Assembly: GCA_030949405.1 (NCBI GenBank)
Contig: JAUZSN010000002.1
Location: forward strand, 1,426,001-1,490,000
Length of the DNA: 64,000 nt
Source of the DNA: Methylococcales bacterium
GTDB lineage: Bacteria > Pseudomonadota > Gammaproteobacteria > Methylococcales > Methylomonadaceae
Reading direction: 5' to 3'
The notes beneath the pieces are model-generated. The model did no database searches, was not told where the DNA came from, and saw only the letters and a list, made by a program, of their open reading frames with translations. Position 1 is the stretch's first letter. Each line of letters opens with the position of its first letter. The position numbers were made by a program, and so were the translations under genes. Shown one piece after another: positions 11,559-52,363 of the stretch.

Positions 11559-11629
11559 ATGTTACAAAGTTCAGTATTTGTTAATAATAAAATTCAAGCA
11601 GTACGTTTACCTGTTGAAGCACGTTTTGG
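11559..11629 (+). pseudogene. vapB: VapB antitoxin remnant, cut by a repeat element
   Basis: An ATG preceded by an AGAGGA ribosome binding site opens a frame reading MLQSSVFVNNKIQAVRLPVEARF, the N-terminus of VapB/AbrB-type antitoxins. About 23 codons in, the sequence runs into the left end of repeat family A (11628-11776) and the antitoxin similarity stops. No recognisable VapB continuation or VapC toxin was seen beyond the repeat. The gene is therefore a truncated remnant of a toxin-antitoxin pair. Confidence 0.7.
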
Positions 11630-11776
11630 CTACCAACTTAAGACGGGATACTATGGAGCGAGGCTTAACCATTCGTCCTGAACCCAGTCGAAGGGCGGAC
11701 GGTTAAGCCGTTCATGCTTCGATAAGCTCAGCACGAACGGCTTAACCTCAACGTGTCTCGTCTTAAGTTAGTAGCC
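11628..11776 (+). mobile_element. MITE-like repeat, family A copy 1
   Basis: A 149-bp element with inverted ends CTACCAACTTAAGACGGG and its counterpart CGTCTTAAGTTAGTAG. The interior is made of smaller palindromes (TTCGTCCTGAACCC, CGGACGGTTAAGCC, TTCGATAAGCTCAG). It has no coding capacity. Related copies lie at 39440-39588, 44814-44961 (inverted) and 63389-63464 (internally deleted). Confidence 0.85.
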
Positions 11777-39425: not shown

Positions 39426-39439
39426 TAATCTATTTAGGG

Positions 39440-39588
39440 GGCTACCCATTTAAGACGGGAGATTCTGGTTCGAGGATTAACCGTTCGTCCTGAGCCCAGT
39501 TGAAGGACGGACGGTTAAGCCATTCATATTTCGATAAGCTCAGTACGAACGGCTTAACCTCAACCTGTCCCGTCTTAAGTTAGTAGCC
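39440..39588 (+). mobile_element. MITE-like repeat, family A copy 2
   Basis: 149 bp, the same length as copy 1, with ends CTACCCATTTAAGACGGG and CGTCTTAAGTTAGTAGCC. The interior (GTTCGTCCTGAGCCCAGT, CGGACGGTTAAGCC, TTCGATAAGCTCAGTACG) matches copy 1 closely. It lies between the truncated kinase and cysM. Confidence 0.85.
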
Positions 39589-40579: not shown

Positions 40580-40693
40580 TGCGAGGTTAATTCGTTATCT
40601 TTAGAAGTTTTAAAAACAAGAATAGTCTATCAAACTTCGAGATGCACAGACCAACATAAAGTGTTTGTCCTAAATCAACCTAATATGGATCTT

Positions 40694-43600
40694 ATGTCAG
40701 ATTTTGCTAAAGAAATTATTCCCGTTAATCTCGAAGATGAGATGAAACAATCCTATCTTGATTATGCCATGAGCGTAATTATAGGACGTGCGCTTCCTGA
40801 TGTTCGAGATGGCTTAAAACCTGTGCATCGTCGGGTTTTATATGCGATGAGTGTACTCGGTAATGATTGGAATAAACCGTATAAAAAATCAGCGCGGATT
40901 GTGGGTGACTGTTTTGTGAAAGGTGCTTTGGTTCATACAGAACAAGGCTTAAAAGCAATAGAAACCATTAAAGTAGGTGAAAAAGTTTTATTACCTGATG
41001 CGCGTTTAAGTGAGGTCGTTGAAGCTTTTCATAACCCACCGAGCGACGTAGTCAACGTTAATTTATCGAATGGTAATAAGTTAACGGTTACCTTGGGTCA
41101 ACTGTTTCGAGTTTTAAATGATGACTTAGAAATTACATGGGAAAAAGCGGAAGACTTACAGGGAAAACGTATTTTAGCGACTAATTCACGTTGTTTAGGT
41201 GATAACGGTTCTACTAATGATAAAAATAATTTAGCTTATATTATTGGTTTGTTAGTAGCGGAAGGCTGCTTAGCTGACCGAGGACGCACACAAAGAGTCT
41301 CTATTAATATGGTTGATACAGAAGCTTTAGAGTTTTTAAGTCAATATTGTGTTGCTAATAATATTAAAGTGAGCTGGACAGAAGTTACACCGAAAAATCC
41401 TAAGCATTCCCTACAACATTGTGTTCGTTTTACAGGTTTAGATGAAGCCTATCAATCTTGTGATCCTACTTGTGCTGATAAAATTGTGCCTGAATGGGTT
41501 TTAAGCGATAGAACTTTATTTGCAGCTTTTATTGCAGGATTTACCGATGGCGATGGACATATCCGCCTTAAAAAAAGTAAACGAGAAATCACGCTAACCT
41601 CTGCCTCAGCAAAATTATTGACACAAATACAAACTATGTTGGCTGATTTTGGTATTCATAGTTATTACACTTGTGAAGACTTTAGTGATAAAAATTATGG
41701 TGATAATTTCTTACCACGTTATAACTTATGGATTACAGGTGAAAACGCGAGTCGTTTTAGTCGTTTTATCGTTGATTATTTAAAAATTCCACGCAAACAG
41801 GCTGTAGCAGCTGAAATATCTGCATGGGAACGTTCTCATGCAAATGTGTTATCAGAGTTTATTTCAAGTGACGTTATTTTTACAGAGTTATCAAAACATC
41901 ACTTAGGCGGTGGTTGGTACAAAGATAAAAACGGTGATAAATTTCGTGCTGGAATTAAATACCTAACAGGTGCAAAAATTCGCTATAGCAGTGATTTATT
42001 TGATAAAGATATTTCCTATTCTCAGCTTGAGCAATGGGGAATTATTAACAAATTAGAACGAATTGGCTCACCCTTGGCCAAAAAATTAACCCATCTAATC
42101 AATACCTATTCGGTACTGACGGTTAACGATGTTATAAAACAAACAGAACAAGCAGAAACCTATGATATTCAAATTGCAGATGATAGCCACGAATTTTTAG
42201 TACAAGGGTGTGCTGTTCATAATTGCATTGGTAAATATCACCCTCATGGAGATACCGCAGTTTACGACACAATGGTTAGAATGGCACAGCCGTTTTCAAT
42301 GCGAAATATGCTCATTGATGGGCAAGGAAATTTTGGTAGTGTCGATGGCGATTCACCTGCCGCAATGCGTTACACAGAGGTTCGTATGGCTAAAATTTCT
42401 CATGAAATTTTAGCCGATTTAGATAAAGAAACCGTCGATTTTGTTTCTAACTATGATGACTCAGAATCTGAACCTTCGGTTATGCCAACTCGTGTTCCTA
42501 CGTTACTCGTTAATGGCTCATCAGGAATTGCTGTTGGAATGGCAACCAATATTCCCCCTCATAATTTAGGTGAAGTGATTAGTGCTTGTTTAGCCTTAAT
42601 CGACAATTCAGAAATGACGATTGCCGATTTAATGCAACATATTCCTGGGCCTGATTTTCCAACTGCCGCGTTTATTAATGGGGTAGACGGCATTTATGAT
42701 GCTTATAGCACAGGACGAGGTAAAGTTCACTTACGCGCAAAAGCGCATTTTGAACCGTTTGGGATAAATGATACCCGTGAAGCCATTATTGTTACCGAAC
42801 TTCCTTATCAAGTAAATAAAGCCCGTTTATTAGAAAAAATTGGGGAAATGCACAAAGATGGAAAGTTAACAGGTATTTCAGCCTTACGCGATGAATCCGA
42901 TAAAGATGGAATGCGGATGGTCATTGAGCTTAAACGCGGTGAAGTCGCTGAAGTGATTCTTAATAATTTATACAAACAAACCCAATTACAAACGGTTTTT
43001 GGAATGAATATGGTTGCGATTCTTAATCGCCGTCCGTATTGTATGAACTTAAAAGAAATATTAGCCGCTTTTATCAATCATCGTCGTGAGGTTGTTACAC
43101 GTAGAACCTTATTTTTATTACGCAAAGCGCGTGATAGAGCCCATATTTTAGAAGGGCTTGGGGTCGCTTTATCCAATATTGATGCCATGATTGTATTAAT
43201 TAAAGGCGCGAAAAATCCAGCCGAAGCACGAGCGGGTTTATTAGCACAAAATTGGAACGTAGGCATGGTGCGGGCTTTATTGGAAAATTCTGATATGTCG
43301 CGTTCACGCCCTGATGATTTACCCGAGGGTTTTGGTGTAGACGGTGATTTTTATAAACTTTCACCGATACAAGTCCAAGCCATTTTAGAATTACGTTTAC
43401 ATCGTTTAACAGGGTTGGAACAAGATAAAATTCTGGCTGAATTTAAACAGCTCTTAGGCTTGATTGATGAATATTTATTTATTATTAATCATGATTCCCG
43501 TCTAATGGAAATTATCAAAGAAGAATTAGAGGTCATCAAAGAACAGTATGCCGATGCCCGTCGTACCGTTATTTTACAAGATCGTTTAAACTTAAGTATT

Positions 43601-44695
43601 GAAGATTTAATCACCGAGGAAGATAGGGTGGTTACGATGTCTCATGAAGGCTATGTTAAATCACAACCGTTAAGTGATTACAAAGCACAACGACGCGGCG
43701 GTCGTGGAAAAATGGCGGCGGCCACTAAAGAAGAGGATTTTGTTGAAAAACTCATTATTGCCAATACTCATGATACGGTTTTATGTTTCTCATCGTTAGG
43801 CAAAGTTTATGGCTTAAAAGTTTATAACTTACCCGTAGCCAGTCGAACCTCACGCGGTAAACCCTTTGTTAATTTATTACCTCTGGCCAAGGATGAAAAA
43901 ATTAATGCCATGTTGCCCGTTAGTGAATTTAGTGATGATAAATTTGTATTTATGGCAACGGCAAATGGAACGGTTAAGAAAACCCCTCTAAAAGAATTTT
44001 CCCGTCAACCCGTTAATGGAAAAATTGCTCTTGATTTACGTGGTGATAATAGTTTAGTGGGTGTTGTTATTACTGATGGGCAACAAAACGTTTTATTATT
44101 TAGCAGTAATGGAAAGGTCATTTGTTTTAATGAAGCCGATGTACGGTCAATGGGACGAACAGCCGCTGGGGTTCGTGGAATTCGTTTAAAAGAAGATCAA
44201 AAAATTATTTCATTAATTATTGGTGCCGAAGGAACCGTTCTTAATATTACTGAAAATGGTTTTGGTAAACGCACCTTGATTGAAAAATATAATTGCCAGA
44301 AACGAGGTGGACAAGGGGTTATTGCTATTCAAACCTCAGAACGTAATGGGGCGGTAGTTGGGGCTGTTTTAGTGAATGATACCGATGAAATTATGCTCAT
44401 TACTAATGGTGGAACCTTAGTTAGAACGCGTGTTGATGAAATTTCAATCGTGGGGCGTAATGCACAAGGTGTAACGGTTATTCGTCCTGATAATGGTGAA
44501 AAAGTCGTAGGGGTTGATCGAATTGATGGGTTACCTGATGACGATGAGGAGAGTTCTTTAGATTCATTAGAAGCCGAAGAAAATGGAGAAAATGGAGAAA
44601 ATGGAGAAAATGGAGAAAATGGAGAAAATGGAGAAAATGAAATAGAAAGTAGCCCTGAATCCAATGTTAATGATGATAAAGGAATCGTTGAGTAA
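40694..44695 (+). CDS. gyrA: DNA gyrase subunit A precursor with an intein
   Basis: The ATG at 40694 ([19 protein letters not shown]) matches the family start; in-frame GTG (40661) and ATG (40685) lie upstream. The precursor has about 1333 residues, of which 438 are an intein, leaving an 895-residue GyrA. The N-extein ends ARIVGD and the C-extein resumes [16 protein letters not shown], so the intein splits the motif just before the quinolone-resistance region (Thr at the E. coli Ser83 position). The catalytic Tyr is in [11 protein letters not shown]. GyrA-box QRRGGRGK and the six-blade beta-pinwheel follow. The acidic tail contains a six-fold Asn-Gly-Glu repeat. Confidence 0.96.
40910..42223 (+). 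other. Intein with LAGLIDADG homing endonuclease inside GyrA
   Basis: 438 residues, beginning with Cys1 ([27 protein letters not shown]) and ending AVHN before a Cys +1. Block F ([17 protein letters not shown]) and the penultimate His-Asn are intact. The two LAGLIDADG helices are [11 protein letters not shown] (~residues 111-121) and [12 protein letters not shown] (~207-218), so the endonuclease may be active. Block B reads TVTLGQ (61-64), with Gln where the usual TxxH has His. A GyrA intein in mycobacteria sits at the active-site Tyr, a different position. Confidence 0.93.
44582..44635 (+). repeat. Six tandem 9-bp repeats at the 3' end of gyrA
   Basis: AATGGAGAA is repeated six times without a mismatch, encoding Asn-Gly-Glu units in the acidic C-terminal tail. 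Changes in copy number would keep the frame. Confidence 0.95.
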
Positions 44696-45096
44696 TTTGA
44701 AAAAATATGGATAAAAACTTATTTTTAACAATGAATAGCCCGTATTTTTCACACTATATACGGGCTAACGTATAAAAAAATGCCATCGCCTTTTATTTTT
44801 AAATGCTTGTCACGGCTATCAACTTAAGACGGGGAAGTTGAGGTTAAGTCGTTCGTACTGAACTTGTTGAAGTATGAACAGCTTAACGGTCCGCCTTTCG
44901 ACTAGGCTAAGGACGAACGGTTAAGCCTCGCTCCATAATGTCCCATCTTAAGTTGGTAGCCCTTATTACCAAAGCACGCTATTTTTATTTATTTTTCAGT
45001 CTAATAATATGAAACCCCCTCCTAAAAGCTTACAAGTTTTATTCTTTTTGTCAGAATTTTAGGGGTTATGATTACTATTAACCCTCATTAAACCTT
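44696..45096. other. Intergenic region with repeat copy 3 and an inverted repeat before the defence operon
   Basis: Apart from the family A element (44814-44961), the 135 bp before the methyltransferase hold an imperfect inverted repeat: CCTAAAA at 45021-45027 and TTTTAGG at 45057-45063, each flanked by C- or G-runs. It lies 30-80 bp before the ATG and could be an operator or hairpin. Confidence 0.4.
44814..44961 (-). mobile_element. MITE-like repeat, family A copy 3 (inverted)
   Basis: 148 bp between GGCTATCAACTTAAGACG and ATCTTAAGTTGGTAGCC. The order of the interior palindromes is reversed relative to copies 1 and 2 (GGTTAAGCCTCGCTCCAT is near the right end). It lies just upstream of the methyltransferase operon. 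Confidence 0.83.
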
Positions 45097-47736
45097 ATGA
45101 ATACAGAAGAAAATCTTCATTCACTTATCGCTTCTTTGGATAAAAATACCTTTATCTATGATTTATTATTAGCTTATGGTTTACCTAGAGCGTCGATTAC
45201 TCGCTTAAAAAAAGGCGATTACAATTTATCTAACGTTGAGGGGGAAATTATTTGGAAGAAGAAGCTTTTTTTTAAATCGGTAGAGGATGAAGATTTACAT
45301 AGTTTATTTGATGCGTTAAAAAATTCGCCTGTAATCAGTAAGCAGCATCCGCGTTTTATGATGTTGACTAATTTTAAATCCTTGTTAGCGACGGATACTA
45401 AAACGGGGGATAGTTTAGATATTGCGCTGGATGAATTGCCTAAGCATTATGATTTTTTCTTGCCTTGGGCGGGGATTGAAAAAGCGCAATTTCAGAATGA
45501 AAACCCTGCGGATGTTAAAGCGGCTGAACGTATGGGGCGTTTGTATGATCTTATTTTAGAGGACAATCCTACACATGAGGCAACGGAGATTCACGCGCTG
45601 AATATTTTTTTGTCGCGGTTGTTGTTTTGTTTTTTTGCGGAAGATACGGGGATTTTTAAGCCGAGTCAGTTTACTAATGCGTTAGCATTGCATACGGTTG
45701 AGGATGGGGGAGATTTACAGGGGTATTTACAGAAGTTGTTTGTGGTTTTGAATCGGCGTGAGCGTTCGGAGTTTCCTCAGTTTTTGCAATATTTTCCGTA
45801 TGTAAATGGCGGTTTATTTGCCGATGATGTGGCTTTGCCTGTGTTTAGTCGTCAGTCGCGGAAGTTGATTATTGAGTGTGGGACGTTAAATTGGAAGGAT
45901 ATTAATCCTGATATTTTTGGTTCGATGATTCAGGCGGTGGTGCATAACGATCAGCGTAGTAATATGGGGATGCACTATACCTCGGTGGTTAATATTATGA
46001 AGGTGATTGAGCCTTTATTTTTGAATGATTTGACGTTGGCGTTAGAGAATGCTGAGAATCATGAGGGACGCTTGAAGAAGTTGTTGCATCGTTTGTATCA
46101 GTTGCGAATTTTTGATCCTGCGTGTGGGTCGGGTAATTTTTTGATTATTGCGTATAAGGTGTTGTGTCGGTTAGAGATTGCGATTTTTAAGCAGTTGCAA
46201 AAGATTGATGCGTCTAATTGGAAGCAGGCTGTTTCGGGTTTGCATTTGAATCAGTTTTATGGGATTGAGTTGGATGATTTTGCGCATGAGACGGCGAAGT
46301 TGTCTTTGTGGTTGACTGAGCATCAAATGAATCTTGAGTTTAGGGCGGTGTTTGGTGAGGCGCGTCCGACGTTGCCTTTACAAGATACGGGGCATATTGT
46401 GTGTGGCAATGCGACCCGTTTAGATTGGGAAGAGGTATGTCCGAAAGTGGGGGAGATTTATATTTTGGGAAATCCGCCTTATTTGGGTGGAAAGTTACAA
46501 AGCGCAGACCAAAAAAAAGATTTGAGTTTTGTATCATTTGAAATTATGAATTGTAAAAACTTAGACTATATCTCTTGCTGGTTTATCAAAGGAACTAAAT
46601 ATATAAATAATTCATTAATAAAATGTGCTTTTGTTTCAACTAATTCAATATGCCAAGGTGAACAAGTCTCACTGCTTTGGAATTATTTATTTAGCAAAAA
46701 AATAGAAATAGACTTTGCTCATCAATCGTTTAAATGGACAAATAATGCAAGAGGTAACGCTGGAATAACATGCGTTATAGTGAGTATTCGTAATATATCG
46801 AATCAACCTAAATTTTTATTTGAAAACTTAGTGAAAAGACAAGTTAAAAATATAAATGCTTATTTGACATCTGGTACTGGATTAATAATAAATAAGAGAG
46901 CTAAAGCTATTTCAAACCTTCCCCTTATTTATTTTGGTAATATGCCTAGAGATGGAGGGCATCTTGTTATATCCTCTGAAGAAGAGAGAGCATCAATTAT
47001 TTCATCAGATCCTAGGGCTAGTAAATTTATTCTTAAATATTTAGGTTCAAAAGAGTTTATACGAAGTGAGATACGTTATTGCTTATGGATTGAAGATAAA
47101 GATTTAAATGAAGCCTCTTCAATTCCTAAAATTAATAATCGAATACTTGCTGTAAAAAACGAACGATTGATAAGTAAAGCTGAAAGTACAAAAAAATATG
47201 CGAATCAACCTCATAGATTTGTTCAAATAAGCTATCAAAAAAAAAGATCAATCATTATTCCAAGTGTTTCTTCAGAACGAAGAGAATATATTCCTATTGG
47301 TTTCCTTGATAAAAATATTATTGTTTCTAATCTTGCATTTGCAATTTACGACCCACCCACTTATATTTTCGCCATAATTTCCTCAAGAATGCACATGACA
47401 TGGGTACGCGCAGTGGCTGGTCGCTTAAAAACAGATTACCGTTATTCCTCTACACTTTGCTACAACACCTTCCCCTTTCCAAAAATCAGCAAAGCTAAAA
47501 AAATCATTTTAGAAGACTGTGTTTTTAAAGTTTTAGACGAGCGCGAATTACATCCCGAAAAAACAATAGCGCAACTTTATGACCCCGATAAAATGCCCGA
47601 AGGCTTACGCCAAGCCCATCATGAAATGGATCTAGCCATCGAACAATGTTACCGCACCACACCCTTTAAAAATGACGAAGAACGCCTAGAATATTTGTTT
47701 AAACGCTATGAAAAAATGATTGCAGCGGAGGCTTAA
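45097..47736 (+). CDS. MmeI-like class I DNA methyltransferase (possible restriction-modification component)
   Basis: 879 residues. The N-terminal ~130 (FIYDLLLAYGLPRASITRLKKGDYNL, EIIWKKKLFFK) and ~250-residue helical spacer resemble MmeI-like/YeeA-type proteins. SAM-binding motif I is DPACGSGNF (from D340) and motif IV ILGNPPYLGG (N459), so it is an adenine-N6 or cytosine-N4 amino-methyltransferase. The target-recognition part (~470-770) is followed by a conserved C-terminal region (GRLKTDYRYSSTLCYNTFPFP). No convincing nuclease motif is seen at the N-terminus. DNA encoding the recognition part (46490-47390) is more AT-rich than both flanks. It leads an operon with brnT, brnA, a helicase and a GIY-YIG nuclease. 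Confidence 0.87.
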   Translation: MNTEENLHSLIASLDKNTFIYDLLLAYGLPRASITRLKKGDYNLSNVEGEIIWKKKLFFKSVEDEDLHSLFDALKNSPVISKQHPRFMMLTNFKSLLATDTKTGDSLDIALDELPKHYDFFLPWAGIEKAQFQNENPADVKAAERMGRLYDLILEDNPTHEATEIHALNIFLSRLLFCFFAEDTGIFKPSQFTNALALHTVEDGGDLQGYLQKLFVVLNRRERSEFPQFLQYFPYVNGGLFADDVALPVFSRQSRKLIIECGTLNWKDINPDIFGSMIQAVVHNDQRSNMGMHYTSVVNIMKVIEPLFLNDLTLALENAENHEGRLKKLLHRLYQLRIFDPACGSGNFLIIAYKVLCRLEIAIFKQLQKIDASNWKQAVSGLHLNQFYGIELDDFAHETAKLSLWLTEHQMNLEFRAVFGEARPTLPLQDTGHIVCGNATRLDWEEVCPKVGEIYILGNPPYLGGKLQSADQKKDLSFVSFEIMNCKNLDYISCWFIKGTKYINNSLIKCAFVSTNSICQGEQVSLLWNYLFSKKIEIDFAHQSFKWTNNARGNAGITCVIVSIRNISNQPKFLFENLVKRQVKNINAYLTSGTGLIINKRAKAISNLPLIYFGNMPRDGGHLVISSEEERASIISSDPRASKFILKYLGSKEFIRSEIRYCLWIEDKDLNEASSIPKINNRILAVKNERLISKAESTKKYANQPHRFVQISYQKKRSIIIPSVSSERREYIPIGFLDKNIIVSNLAFAIYDPPTYIFAIISSRMHMTWVRAVAGRLKTDYRYSSTLCYNTFPFPKISKAKKIILEDCVFKVLDERELHPEKTIAQLYDPDKMPEGLRQAHHEMDLAIEQCYRTTPFKNDEERLEYLFKRYEKMIAAEA

Positions 47737-47742
47737 TAAACT

Positions 47743-48039
47743 ATGCAATATCATTTTGAATGGGATCCTATTAAAACCAAAACAAACTTAAAAAAACATG
47801 CTGTTAGCTTTGAAGAAGCCGCTGAAGTGTTTCTTGACCCCTTACAATTAACGCTACCTGATAATGAACATCATGATGCAGAAGAACGCTGGATTACTTT
47901 AGGAAATACGCAGCAACATAAATTACGCTTAGTTGTTCATACTTTTGTAAGCTACAGCCAAGAGCAAATAACAATCCGTATTATTTCAGCAAGACCTGCA
48001 AACCGACACGAACAAAGACGCTACGAGGAAATAGAATGA
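47743..48039 (+). CDS. brnT: BrnT-type ribonuclease toxin
   Basis: 98 residues. FEWDPIKTKTNLKKHAVSFEEAAEVFLDPLQLTLPD and the C-terminal IRIISARPANRHEQRRYEE are the hallmarks of BrnT, a RelE-fold ribonuclease. It starts 6 bp after the methyltransferase stop, and its end overlaps the antitoxin start by 4 bases (ATGA). It should cleave RNA when not held by BrnA. Its position inside a restriction-like operon is notable. Confidence 0.93.
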   Translation: MQYHFEWDPIKTKTNLKKHAVSFEEAAEVFLDPLQLTLPDNEHHDAEERWITLGNTQQHKLRLVVHTFVSYSQEQITIRIISARPANRHEQRRYEEIE

Positions 48040-48245
48040 AAGACGAATATGATTTTTCCAATGCCGAACGTGGGCGTTTTTATCGCCCCGATGCCACTTT
48101 AAAACTGCCCGTTTATTTAGAAACTGATGTTGAAAACTGGTTTACAGAAAAAGCCCAAGCCAAAGGCGTTAATCTTACGGATTTAGTGAATGACTTATTG
48201 CGTAAAGATATATCTTTAATTCAAGCCGTCACTAAAAATGCCTAA
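48036..48245 (+). CDS. brnA: BrnA-type antitoxin
   Basis: 69 residues. KDEYDFSNAERGRFYRPDATLKLPVYLETDVENWFTEKAQAKGVNLTDLVNDLLRKDI matches the BrnA/CopG-like antitoxins that follow brnT, with a C-terminal ribbon-helix-helix segment for DNA binding. Such antitoxins repress their own operons. It overlaps both brnT (4 bases) and the helicase (8 bases), so it might influence expression of the whole unit. Confidence 0.88.
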   Translation: MKDEYDFSNAERGRFYRPDATLKLPVYLETDVENWFTEKAQAKGVNLTDLVNDLLRKDISLIQAVTKNA

Positions 48246-50175
48246 CCTTGTTGATGTAAACTATTCCCAAACAGGCGACAGCATTTCCATAAATAAAATG
48301 GGAATGCGCAAAATGCAAATCCGCGCTTTTGAAGCGCGACATGCACAATATTTACTATTAAAATCGCCACCCGCATCAGGAAAATCAAGAGCCTTAATGT
48401 TTCTAGGCTTAGATAAACTCTATCACCAAGGCATAAAAAAAGTGATTGTCGCCGTTCCTGAACGTGCCATCGGCGCATCCTTTGATTGCACCAAACTTAC
48501 ACAACACGGATTTTTTGCCGACTGGGATTACGCGCCTAAATACAATTTATGCACAGGGGGCGGCGAATCCAGCAAAGTCAGCGCCTTTAAAAACTTTCTT
48601 AACGACAACAGCGCGACGATATTAATTTGTACCCACGCCACCCTGCGCTTTGCCTATCAAGCCGTTGATGAAAATGACTTTAATAATACCCTATTAGCCA
48701 TAGACGAATTTCACCATGTCTCAGCCGATAGTGACAACCAATTAGGCGAAGTGATTCGCTCTATTATGCGTCACACAAATGCCCATATTATTGCCATGAC
48801 AGGCTCTTATTTTCGCGGCGATAGTATACCTGTGTTATCACCCGAAGACGAAGCCAAATTTTCTAAAGTCACTTACAACTATTACGAACAACTCAATGGC
48901 TACAGCTATTTAAAAACTCTCGGCATTGGCTATCACTTTTATCAAGGCAACTATCTCAACGCAATAGATGACGTCTTAGATACCAACAAAAAAACCATTC
49001 TGCATATTCCCAATGTTAATGGCGGTGAATCCACCAAAGACAAACATAATGAAGTCGATTGTATTTTAGACTGCATCGGCACAGTGACACACCAAGACAA
49101 CGACACAGGCGTTATTCATATTAAACGCAAAGGCGATGACAAAATTATCAAAGTCGCCGATTTAGTCAACGACACCCCGAAAGACCGCGATAAAATTATG
49201 CGTTATCTACGCGAAATGAACGCCGCAGATGATATAGATGTGATTATCGCGCTCGGAATGGCAAAAGAAGGCTTTGATTGGGTATTTTGCGAACACGCGC
49301 TGACCGTGGGTTATCGTGGCTCATTAACTGAAATAATCCAAATTATTGGCAGAGCCACACGCGATAGCGAAAACAAAAACCACGCTCAATTTACCAACTT
49401 AATCGCTCAACCCGATGCCGCCGATGACTTAGTAAAACTATCGGTTAATAACATGTTGAAAGCGATTACCGCCTCATTATTAATGGAACAAGTGCTTGCG
49501 CCTAATTTTAAATTTAAAACCAAATTACCCGATGATGATAAACATGTCGCAGGCACGATTAAAATTCACGGGTTTAAAGAACCCAGCAGCCAACGAGTTA
49601 AAGAAATTGTCGAATCAGATTTGAATGATTTAAAAGCCGCTATTTTGCAAGATAATACAATGCTAAAAGCGTTACCTAGTGAATCCGTTGATCCACAGGT
49701 CATTAACAAGGTGATGATTCCTAAAATCATTCAAACAAAATACCCTGATTTAACCGCAGAGGAAGTGGAAGAAATTCGCCAACATGTTGTCACCGATTCC
49801 GTGATTAAAAATGGCGAAATTAAAGAAGTGGGCGGTAAATATTTTGTCCGCATGGCCAGTAAATTCGTCAACATAGAAGACTTGCATATTGATTTAATTG
49901 ATAAAGTTAATCCGTTTCAAAAAGCCTTTGAAGTGTTATCAAAATCCGTCACCGCAAAATTATTAAAAGTGATTCAAGAAACCATTGATGCAGGGCGTAT
50001 AGAAATGACTGACGAAGAAGCGGTGATTCTGTACCGCGATAAAATCGGCGAATTTATCAAAAAATATAACCGCGAACCTGATATTAATTCATCAGACGCG
50101 CTAGAAAAACGCATGGCAGAAGCGATTATTTATCTTAAAAATAAAAAACGCCAACAAAACACCGCGCAAGCATGA
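48238..50175 (+). CDS. SF2 (DEAD/DEAH-type) helicase of the defence operon
   Basis: 645 residues. Walker A PPASGKS ends at Lys49-Ser50, Walker B is DEFH (D156-H159), motif III TGS, and motif VI QIIGRATR starts at Gln368, so both RecA-like domains are complete. The C-terminal ~230 residues are helical and unassigned. This is the layout of a restriction-type translocase/helicase rather than an RNA helicase (no Q motif, no DEAD). It overlaps brnA by 8 bases and the nuclease gene by 4 (ATGA). Confidence 0.9.
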   Translation: MPNLVDVNYSQTGDSISINKMGMRKMQIRAFEARHAQYLLLKSPPASGKSRALMFLGLDKLYHQGIKKVIVAVPERAIGASFDCTKLTQHGFFADWDYAPKYNLCTGGGESSKVSAFKNFLNDNSATILICTHATLRFAYQAVDENDFNNTLLAIDEFHHVSADSDNQLGEVIRSIMRHTNAHIIAMTGSYFRGDSIPVLSPEDEAKFSKVTYNYYEQLNGYSYLKTLGIGYHFYQGNYLNAIDDVLDTNKKTILHIPNVNGGESTKDKHNEVDCILDCIGTVTHQDNDTGVIHIKRKGDDKIIKVADLVNDTPKDRDKIMRYLREMNAADDIDVIIALGMAKEGFDWVFCEHALTVGYRGSLTEIIQIIGRATRDSENKNHAQFTNLIAQPDAADDLVKLSVNNMLKAITASLLMEQVLAPNFKFKTKLPDDDKHVAGTIKIHGFKEPSSQRVKEIVESDLNDLKAAILQDNTMLKALPSESVDPQVINKVMIPKIIQTKYPDLTAEEVEEIRQHVVTDSVIKNGEIKEVGGKYFVRMASKFVNIEDLHIDLIDKVNPFQKAFEVLSKSVTAKLLKVIQETIDAGRIEMTDEEAVILYRDKIGEFIKKYNREPDINSSDALEKRMAEAIIYLKNKKRQQNTAQA

Positions 50176-51365
50176 TTGATTTTGCTCAAGAACTTGAAAA
50201 TATTTTAAGCGATGACCCTTTAGATTTATTAGCCATTAAAGCTAAAACCCTCTCAGCAATGAATGATGATGAGCGTTTAATTGCCTCATTTGAAGAAATT
50301 AATCAATTTGTGCGTAAACAGGGGCATGAACCCACAAAAAACCGTGATGATATTAATGAAAGAAGTTTGTTTTCGCGCTTAGAGGGTTTAAGAAATGATA
50401 TTAAAAAAGTAAAACGGTTAATGCCTTTTGATTGTTTTAAGTTATTAGAAACTATTTCTACGCTTGAACTTGAACCCGAAGCGAAAGAAATCACCAGCGT
50501 CAGCGATATTTTAGTAGACGATATATTAGGTTTGTTAGGCGAGGATGAGAATGATATTTTTACGCTTAAAAATGTCTCCAAAACCTTAAAAATGCCTGAA
50601 AAAGTTGCTCAACGAAAACCGTGTAAAAACTTTGCAAACTATGAAGCATTATTTAAACAATGTCATGCGGACTTAGTGTCTGAGAAAAGTGAATTAAAGA
50701 AATTTACAGGCGAGCAACAAATTACCACAGGGCATTTTTTTATTTTACATGGGGTGATGGTTTATGTTGCTAAAGTCGGCAAGAAATCAAAAAAACGCGG
50801 CAAGGTCAATGCGCGATTACGGTGTATTTTTGAAAATGGCACAGAATCCAACATGCTATTACGTTCGTTAGCGACCGAATTATATAAAGATGAAAACGGA
50901 CGGCGTATATTAAGTCACCGTGAAGAATTGTTTGATAACGCGGAAAAAATAACGCCAGCGGATAAGGCAACAGGTTATATTTATATCTTACGTTCATTAA
51001 GCGATGACCCTCAAATTAAAGCGATTAAAAACCTGTATAAAATTGGGTTTTCTCGGAAATCGGTAACACAACGTATCGCCAATGCTCACCATGAACCGAC
51101 CTATTTAATGGCAAAGGTTCAAATTATCACAGAATACCAAGCCTATAATTTAAATCCTCATAAATTAGAAACTTTATTGCATACTTTTTTTGCAGAATCC
51201 TGTTTGAATTTAGAGGTTTTTAATCAAGGGCAACGATATTCACCCCGCGAATGGTTTATCGTCCCCTTAGCGATCATAGAAACTACGGTTCAACTTTTAA
51301 GGAATGGTGAGATTATCCATTATCGTTATGATCGTGAGCAGCAGGAAATATTTTCTAAGGAATGA
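50172..51365 (+). CDS. GIY-YIG (T5orf172/MUG113-type) nuclease
   Basis: 397 residues. The C-terminal ~130 form a GIY-YIG-related domain: GYIYILRS (from G268), YKIGFSRKSVTQRIANAHHEP, HKLETLLHTFFAESCL and REWFIVP. The N-terminal 260 residues are helical and acidic, with no recognised domain, and may bind the helicase or target DNA. It overlaps the helicase gene by 4 bases and ends the operon. Nuclease activity is predicted from the fold; the tyrosines, Arg (QRIAN) and Glu (HKLE) needed for catalysis are in place. Confidence 0.87.
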   Translation: MIDFAQELENILSDDPLDLLAIKAKTLSAMNDDERLIASFEEINQFVRKQGHEPTKNRDDINERSLFSRLEGLRNDIKKVKRLMPFDCFKLLETISTLELEPEAKEITSVSDILVDDILGLLGEDENDIFTLKNVSKTLKMPEKVAQRKPCKNFANYEALFKQCHADLVSEKSELKKFTGEQQITTGHFFILHGVMVYVAKVGKKSKKRGKVNARLRCIFENGTESNMLLRSLATELYKDENGRRILSHREELFDNAEKITPADKATGYIYILRSLSDDPQIKAIKNLYKIGFSRKSVTQRIANAHHEPTYLMAKVQIITEYQAYNLNPHKLETLLHTFFAESCLNLEVFNQGQRYSPREWFIVPLAIIETTVQLLRNGEIIHYRYDREQQEIFSKE

Positions 51366-51905: not shown

Positions 51906-52363
51906 TTATTGCTGGTTTTTCCAGACATACCAGTTAGGCACAACCCAAACCCAGTACCCTGCTACACCGACCTGACCACACCACGATCCTCCTCCCCAAT
52001 AACCATAATCTCGATATTGCCCATACTGACTTTTATCTTTAGGGCAATTCAATGTTTGTAATAACCCAGAATATTTACCTGCTGCTGAGGTTTTATTAGC
52101 CGATGCTTTATCCGCCCACACATACCACGAAGGCTGTAGCCAAACCCAATACCCTGCTTTACCTTGTTGACCACACCAAGACCCCCTTTCCAATAACCAT
52201 AATCATTAAACGTACCATATTTAGCACTATCGCTAGGACAAGCAAGTTCTTGAATAAGGTTATTATATTTACCATTGGCAGAAGCCGAGTTTCTGGCAAA
52301 ACTAGTGGTAGGCAAAAAACTGATGCCGCTCATCAATAAAACTAATAAAATTTTTATTTTCAT
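51906..52363 (-). pseudogene. Exported Trp/Tyr/Gly-rich two-repeat protein, frameshifted at a G-run
   Basis: The ATG at 52363 opens a signal peptide (MKIKILLVLLMSGISFLPTTSFA). Two ~60-residue repeats follow, each with KY-x2-L-x3-L-x-CP, YG, DYGYW, SWCGQ-x-G-x-AGYWVW and P-x-WYVW. The frame breaks in repeat 1 at a run of five C (52182-52186, five G on the coding strand). One extra G there restores GYWKGGSWCGQ and gives 152 residues. The domain family is unknown to me. The repeated aromatic motif suggests a surface or carbohydrate-binding role, which is inference only. Confidence 0.75.

Follow-up and report, generated by a model that had tools for sequence, protein, structure and literature searches.

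The locus described here raises the question of whether five closely coupled genes, encoding an MmeI-like methyltransferase, a BrnT toxin and its antitoxin, an SF2 helicase and a GIY-YIG nuclease, make up a defence system of their own, as a preliminary description of this DNA had proposed, or belong to a type that is already known. We analysed the genes within the window, by which we mean the whole stretch of 64,000 nucleotides from a Methylococcales bacterium, and consider it likely that three of them form a Type I-like restriction-modification cassette of the DnmA-YeeB-YeeC kind, with a BrnT-BrnA pair carried as passenger cargo.

Table 1 Features of the cassette and of its left flank, in window coordinates
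Feature	Position	Strand	Size and basis
MmeI-family (Type IIL) m6A DNA methyltransferase, DnmA/YeeA-like	45097..47736	+	879 aa; Pfam, 5hr4, motif-loss alignment
Degenerate MmeI_N domain, no D...ExK	45142..45564	+	Pfam, alignment
Methyltransferase domain, DPACGSGNFL and NPPY intact	46042..46821	+	Pfam, direct reading
Target recognition domain (TRD)	46879..47487	+	Pfam; 5hr4; published MmeI residue code
BrnT RNase-type toxin, probable accessory cargo	47743..48039	+	98 aa; BrnT_toxin (PF04365), E=5e-26
Probable BrnA/CopG-like ribbon-helix-helix antitoxin	48036..48245	+	69 aa; weak CopG_antitoxin match (PF12441, E=0.009, below the Pfam cut-off); position, BrnT overlap
SF2 helicase/translocase, YeeB-like	48238..50175	+	645 aa; DEAD, ResIII and Helicase_C (Pfam); AF2 model
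GIY-YIG (MUG113/T5orf172) nuclease, YeeC-like	50172..51365	+	397 aa; MUG113 (2e-13), T5orf172 (1e-11) (Pfam); AF2 model
MITE-like repeat, left of the cassette and outside the system	44814..44961	.	~150 bp, 20-bp inverted ends; genome repeat search

All five frames are open and intact, with a gap of 6 bases between the methyltransferase and BrnT genes and overlaps of 4, 8 and 4 bases at the BrnT/antitoxin, antitoxin/helicase and helicase/nuclease boundaries. Promoter and terminator scans of the cassette returned sites no more common than in shuffled sequence, and the operon structure is therefore deduced from the gene overlaps only; an Rfam search of the region gave no match. The preliminary description had given the same five reading frames, strands, gap and overlaps, and our check of the coordinates agrees with it exactly. 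Its domain calls also hold in Pfam, with the antitoxin weakly assigned, and the alignments described below bear out its reading that the N-terminus of the methyltransferase shows no certain nuclease motif; K49, the helicase residue that it singled out for mutation, is the Walker A lysine.

The methyltransferase matches all five Pfam domains of MmeI (MmeI_N, hel, Mtase, TRD and C; E=2e-104 for MmeI_Mtase) and finds the MmeI structure 5hr4 at E=6e-188 in a sequence search of the PDB. It shares with Type IIL MmeI the five-domain architecture, the methyltransferase and the TRD, and strand-asymmetric m6A would be expected. A Type IIL enzyme, however, joins PD-ExK nuclease, methyltransferase and TRD in a single polypeptide; here the other domains are present but the nuclease motif is absent, the equivalents of the MmeI cleavage residues D70, E80 and K82 (PMC4833311) having been lost and cutting having apparently moved to separate genes. 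Alignment of 88 methyltransferases, 10 without a helicase neighbour and 78 with one (the window among the latter, and L174 scored as positive for a helicase that lies on its contig just beyond the cut), places this loss in a wider pattern: D...ExK is intact in 10/10 of the former and absent in 78/78 of the latter. In a tree of the core domains, the group with the nuclease motif and the helicase-linked group form separate clades, with an SH-aLRT support of 100 once the divergent L170 is left out; with L170 kept, the same split is recovered at low support. Judged from these sequences, the built-in nuclease appears to have been swapped once, anciently, for an external motor and nuclease, and the exchange then fixed. 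Since the partition represents one ancient event, the 10/10 versus 0/78 division does not amount to 88 independent tests, and the chance figure of 2e-13 that can be attached to it ignores the shared history of the sequences. The same genome encodes a second MmeI-type enzyme (L161:6045-8840), one of the ten, which has kept its nuclease motif (VEMKS) and lacks a neighbouring helicase; a third strong MmeI_Mtase match in this genome is at G000:C2:708379.

The residues equivalent to MmeI 773, 774, 806, 808 and 810 in the TRD are N, L, K, D and R. Read with the published code, they give a predicted site of NN(C)GAG, with G at position 4, the methylated A (m6A) at position 5, G at position 6 and perhaps C at position 3. 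The GAG end and the position of m6A, as far as a prediction goes, fit the GACGAG of DnmA from Bacillus subtilis.

The helicase retains its Walker A sequence PPASGKS, DEFH and QIIGRATR, and these motifs, K49 included, are nearly invariant across the family. Its AF2 model (pLDDT 79) finds EcoR124I HsdR as the best fold match in the PDB at E=5e-10, with a TM-score of only 0.35, and would support at most an SF2 motor of the HsdR type. In the GIY-YIG protein the conserved residues are G268, Y271, K290-I-G292, R301, E333, H337 and E360-W361, with the tyrosine, the K-x-G, the arginine and the glutamate showing almost no variation across the family. A fold search with its AF2 model gave nothing significant (best E=0.004); the likeness of a short, SH3-like segment to EF-P domain I (54 columns of 5wxk) has little functional meaning. 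Neither helicase nor nuclease had a match in the PDB sequence search.

A sample of 399 genomes from the phylum contains 24 with a relative of the helicase; such relatives also come from 263 plasmid records, 118 of them conjugative, and from many other phyla, archaea included; among near relatives the cassette is patchy (5/41). Common as it is, neither helicase nor nuclease is well covered by PADLOC, with no good match to either among the models searched. Gene order was examined in the 83 loci whose sequence extends 2.7 kb or more 5′ of the helicase. The methyltransferase lies upstream of the helicase on the same strand in 82 of these, and 7.3 kb upstream in the remaining one (L042), while the GIY-YIG gene directly follows the helicase in 99 of 100 loci. 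These counts take in the window and two duplicated loci. Although 80 loci, from the genome collection, were chosen by similarity to the helicase studied, the 20 from the phylum search were chosen by E-value only, and their gene order is identical to that of the rest. With the same order of the three core genes found again in some 83 loci, the arrangement is far beyond chance. The conserved co-occurrence on which the preliminary description staked its proposal is thus borne out for the three core genes, in essentially all 83 testable loci, and fails for BrnTA, which was found in no other locus examined. Pairwise distances of the methyltransferase core, the helicase and the nuclease correlate at 0.87-0.90 (0.90 for core against helicase, 0.89 for helicase against nuclease). 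The correlation between TRD and helicase is only 0.51, as expected if the TRD is swapped, and the three proteins thus appear to be inherited together while the specificity domain is exchanged.

This gene set is not without precedent. DnmA (YeeA) of B. subtilis is an MmeI homologue without the nuclease motif, YeeB belongs to the SF2 helicases and YeeC carries a C-terminal T5orf172 domain, and the cluster is conserved and associated with defence (PMC9973331, PMC7261158); our profile search also finds an MmeI_Mtase match in B. subtilis. Likened through these published descriptions, the window has the same genes in the same order, with an MmeI-family methyltransferase that is missing its REase motif, followed on the same strand by a helicase and then a T5orf172/GIY-YIG protein, and differs by the BrnTA pair inserted 5′ of the helicase. 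By these features we take the cassette to be a member of a widespread and already described restriction cassette type; the preliminary description of an undescribed five-gene system cannot be upheld, since an existing cluster has the same three-gene core. The resemblance to Type I systems is looser. The motor has HsdR as its best fold match, and modification enzyme and motor are encoded in separate genes, but the HsdS and the HsdR-type nuclease of a Type I system (HsdM, HsdS and HsdR with fused PD-ExK) are absent from the cassette, and the nuclease, a GIY-YIG protein, is encoded apart from the motor instead of being fused to it as a PD-ExK domain. ARMADA (PMC12458937) was considered and rejected: it includes a YeeA-related methyltransferase, but with other helicases, and its text names no GIY-YIG protein.

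We propose the following mechanism for the cassette. The methyltransferase would methylate a single strand (m6A) at an asymmetric 6-bp site, predicted to be 5′-NN(C)GAG-3′ with the A at position 5, and, its own nuclease domain being dead, would supply sequence recognition. On unmethylated DNA, the HsdR-like helicase would move along at the expense of ATP and deliver the GIY-YIG nuclease, whose gene overlaps its own, to cut the unmarked DNA. The three proteins may act as a physical complex; ATP-driven cleavage, use of the mark to tell self from non-self and a role against phage are likewise probable. Published proposals of such a division of labour date back to 2009; a Type I-like restriction was suggested for the cluster by Morgan et al. 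in 2009, as cited in PMC7261158 and PMC9973331. In Vibrio crassostreae, deletions of dnmA and yeeB homologues are reported, by way of PMC9973331 and PMC7261158, to raise sensitivity to some phages. The preliminary description had arrived at a similar model, with a methyltransferase that marks self DNA and a helicase-nuclease that cuts unmarked DNA, which agrees with the motif partition, read as one ancient switch, and with the literature of 2009-2023.

Against this mechanism stands B. subtilis itself, whose copy, the subject of the only detailed study in the literature covered, seems inactive. The cluster gave no protection against any of the three phages tested, and the authors termed it a relic (PMC9973331, PMC7261158); the literature covered reports no nuclease activity for any of its members. 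By the same argument, the methyltransferase here could be an orphan regulatory methylase beside a helicase and a nuclease that no longer restrict. Besides the B. subtilis deletion data, a relative from the same family (G405) points this way, its helicase being split by an in-frame stop (L214:9083-11004), and some cassettes are thus decaying. In the window, however, every frame is intact and the catalytic residues are conserved, and conservation across the family together with the co-inheritance of the three genes implies selection on the helicase and the nuclease. We therefore regard loss of restriction in this copy as unlikely.

It remains to place the BrnT-BrnA pair, which the preliminary description counted as a member of the system. 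A BrnT family toxin gene here precedes, with overlap, a small and probably RHH-like gene, in the manner of BrnT-BrnA toxin-antitoxin systems; the candidate antitoxin is CopG-like and weakly assigned, and the pair is embedded in a restriction cassette. The pair sits in the junction between methyltransferase and helicase, which holds inserts of more than 450 bp in 39 of the 83 loci, nearly all of them long co-directional ORFs, and is free of any insert in 43, while the junction between helicase and nuclease is almost always closed. Proteins encoded by these inserts include RhuM (7), Schlafen AlbA_2 (6), HATPase_c_4 (6), BRO-N (4), AAA_21 (4) and Fic (2), and many inserts also match the PADLOC candidate-defence families PDC-S05 and PDC-S23, in a tally that is not split by protein. 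Several loci have different toxin-antitoxin genes at this position: RelB-YafQ in L212, of the same genus, and in L040, a zeta-like ATPase with a PIN_2 protein in L214, of the same family, FitA/PIN and DUF433/DUF5615 in L058, and HigB in L076.

This recurrence, together with the overlaps of 4 and 8 bases that link BrnT, antitoxin and helicase, would fit a true unit of five genes to whose function BrnTA contributes, for instance as an abortive backup that is set free once the restriction genes are blocked. Yet many inserts are not toxin-antitoxin genes, more than half of the junctions carry none, and no insert is present in the closest cassette (L051/L213); with BrnTA present in no other helicase locus examined, we reject a named five-gene system and find a functional five-gene unit very improbable. 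The variety of inserts and the restriction of BrnTA to this locus make the pair best read as interchangeable cargo, presumably a passenger or stabilising module. We would venture only as speculation, and rather doubtfully, that the junction is a dedicated slot for exchangeable toxin-antitoxin and other candidate defence genes, which would act as guards and exact a penalty when the restriction genes are lost or inhibited. A delay of the restriction genes, or addiction, would be other conceivable roles of such a slot. What remains of interest is this one-sided cargo slot and the clean exchange of nuclease for helicase, and the ideas of guarding and of divided labour are directly testable.

Least probable of all is that helicase and nuclease block phage replication in the manner of BREX or DISARM instead of serving as an endonuclease to which methylated sites are immune. 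Phages show no avoidance of the B. subtilis motif (PMC9973331), and the methyltransferase also obtains PADLOC scores for DrmMI and PglX, but those scores fall far below that of the Type IIG model, and no other BREX or DISARM gene (PglZ/BrxC or DrmA/DrmB) is found among the five proteins of the cassette.

The composition of the cassette is uneven. At third codon positions the methyltransferase gene has a G content of 0.33-0.50 and a C content of 0.01-0.09 between 45397 and 46596; further on, these positions turn A/T-rich and then, in the helicase, rich in C (up to 0.41) and poor in G (down to 0.02). This sharp switch along 45097-50175 points to a mosaic joined just behind the NPPY motif of the methyltransferase; several relatives show a dip in GC over the recognition domain as well. 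An empty insertion site was sought in five relatives, whose phhB stretches hold no gyrA, cysM, fadE, fadJ or cassette gene near phhB, so that the comparison gave no proof of such a site. The host genome has 53 matches, full or partial, to the MITE-like repeat left of the cassette, and in the window the repeat also occurs near 39439-39588 and 11628-11776. The gyrA frame (40661-44695, 1344 aa) appears, on direct reading, to carry an intein after its N-terminal region. Beyond the cassette, at 51906-52363, two overlapping minus-strand frames have in common a repeated GGxWCGQxGxxGYWVW-like motif and may be one frameshifted gene.
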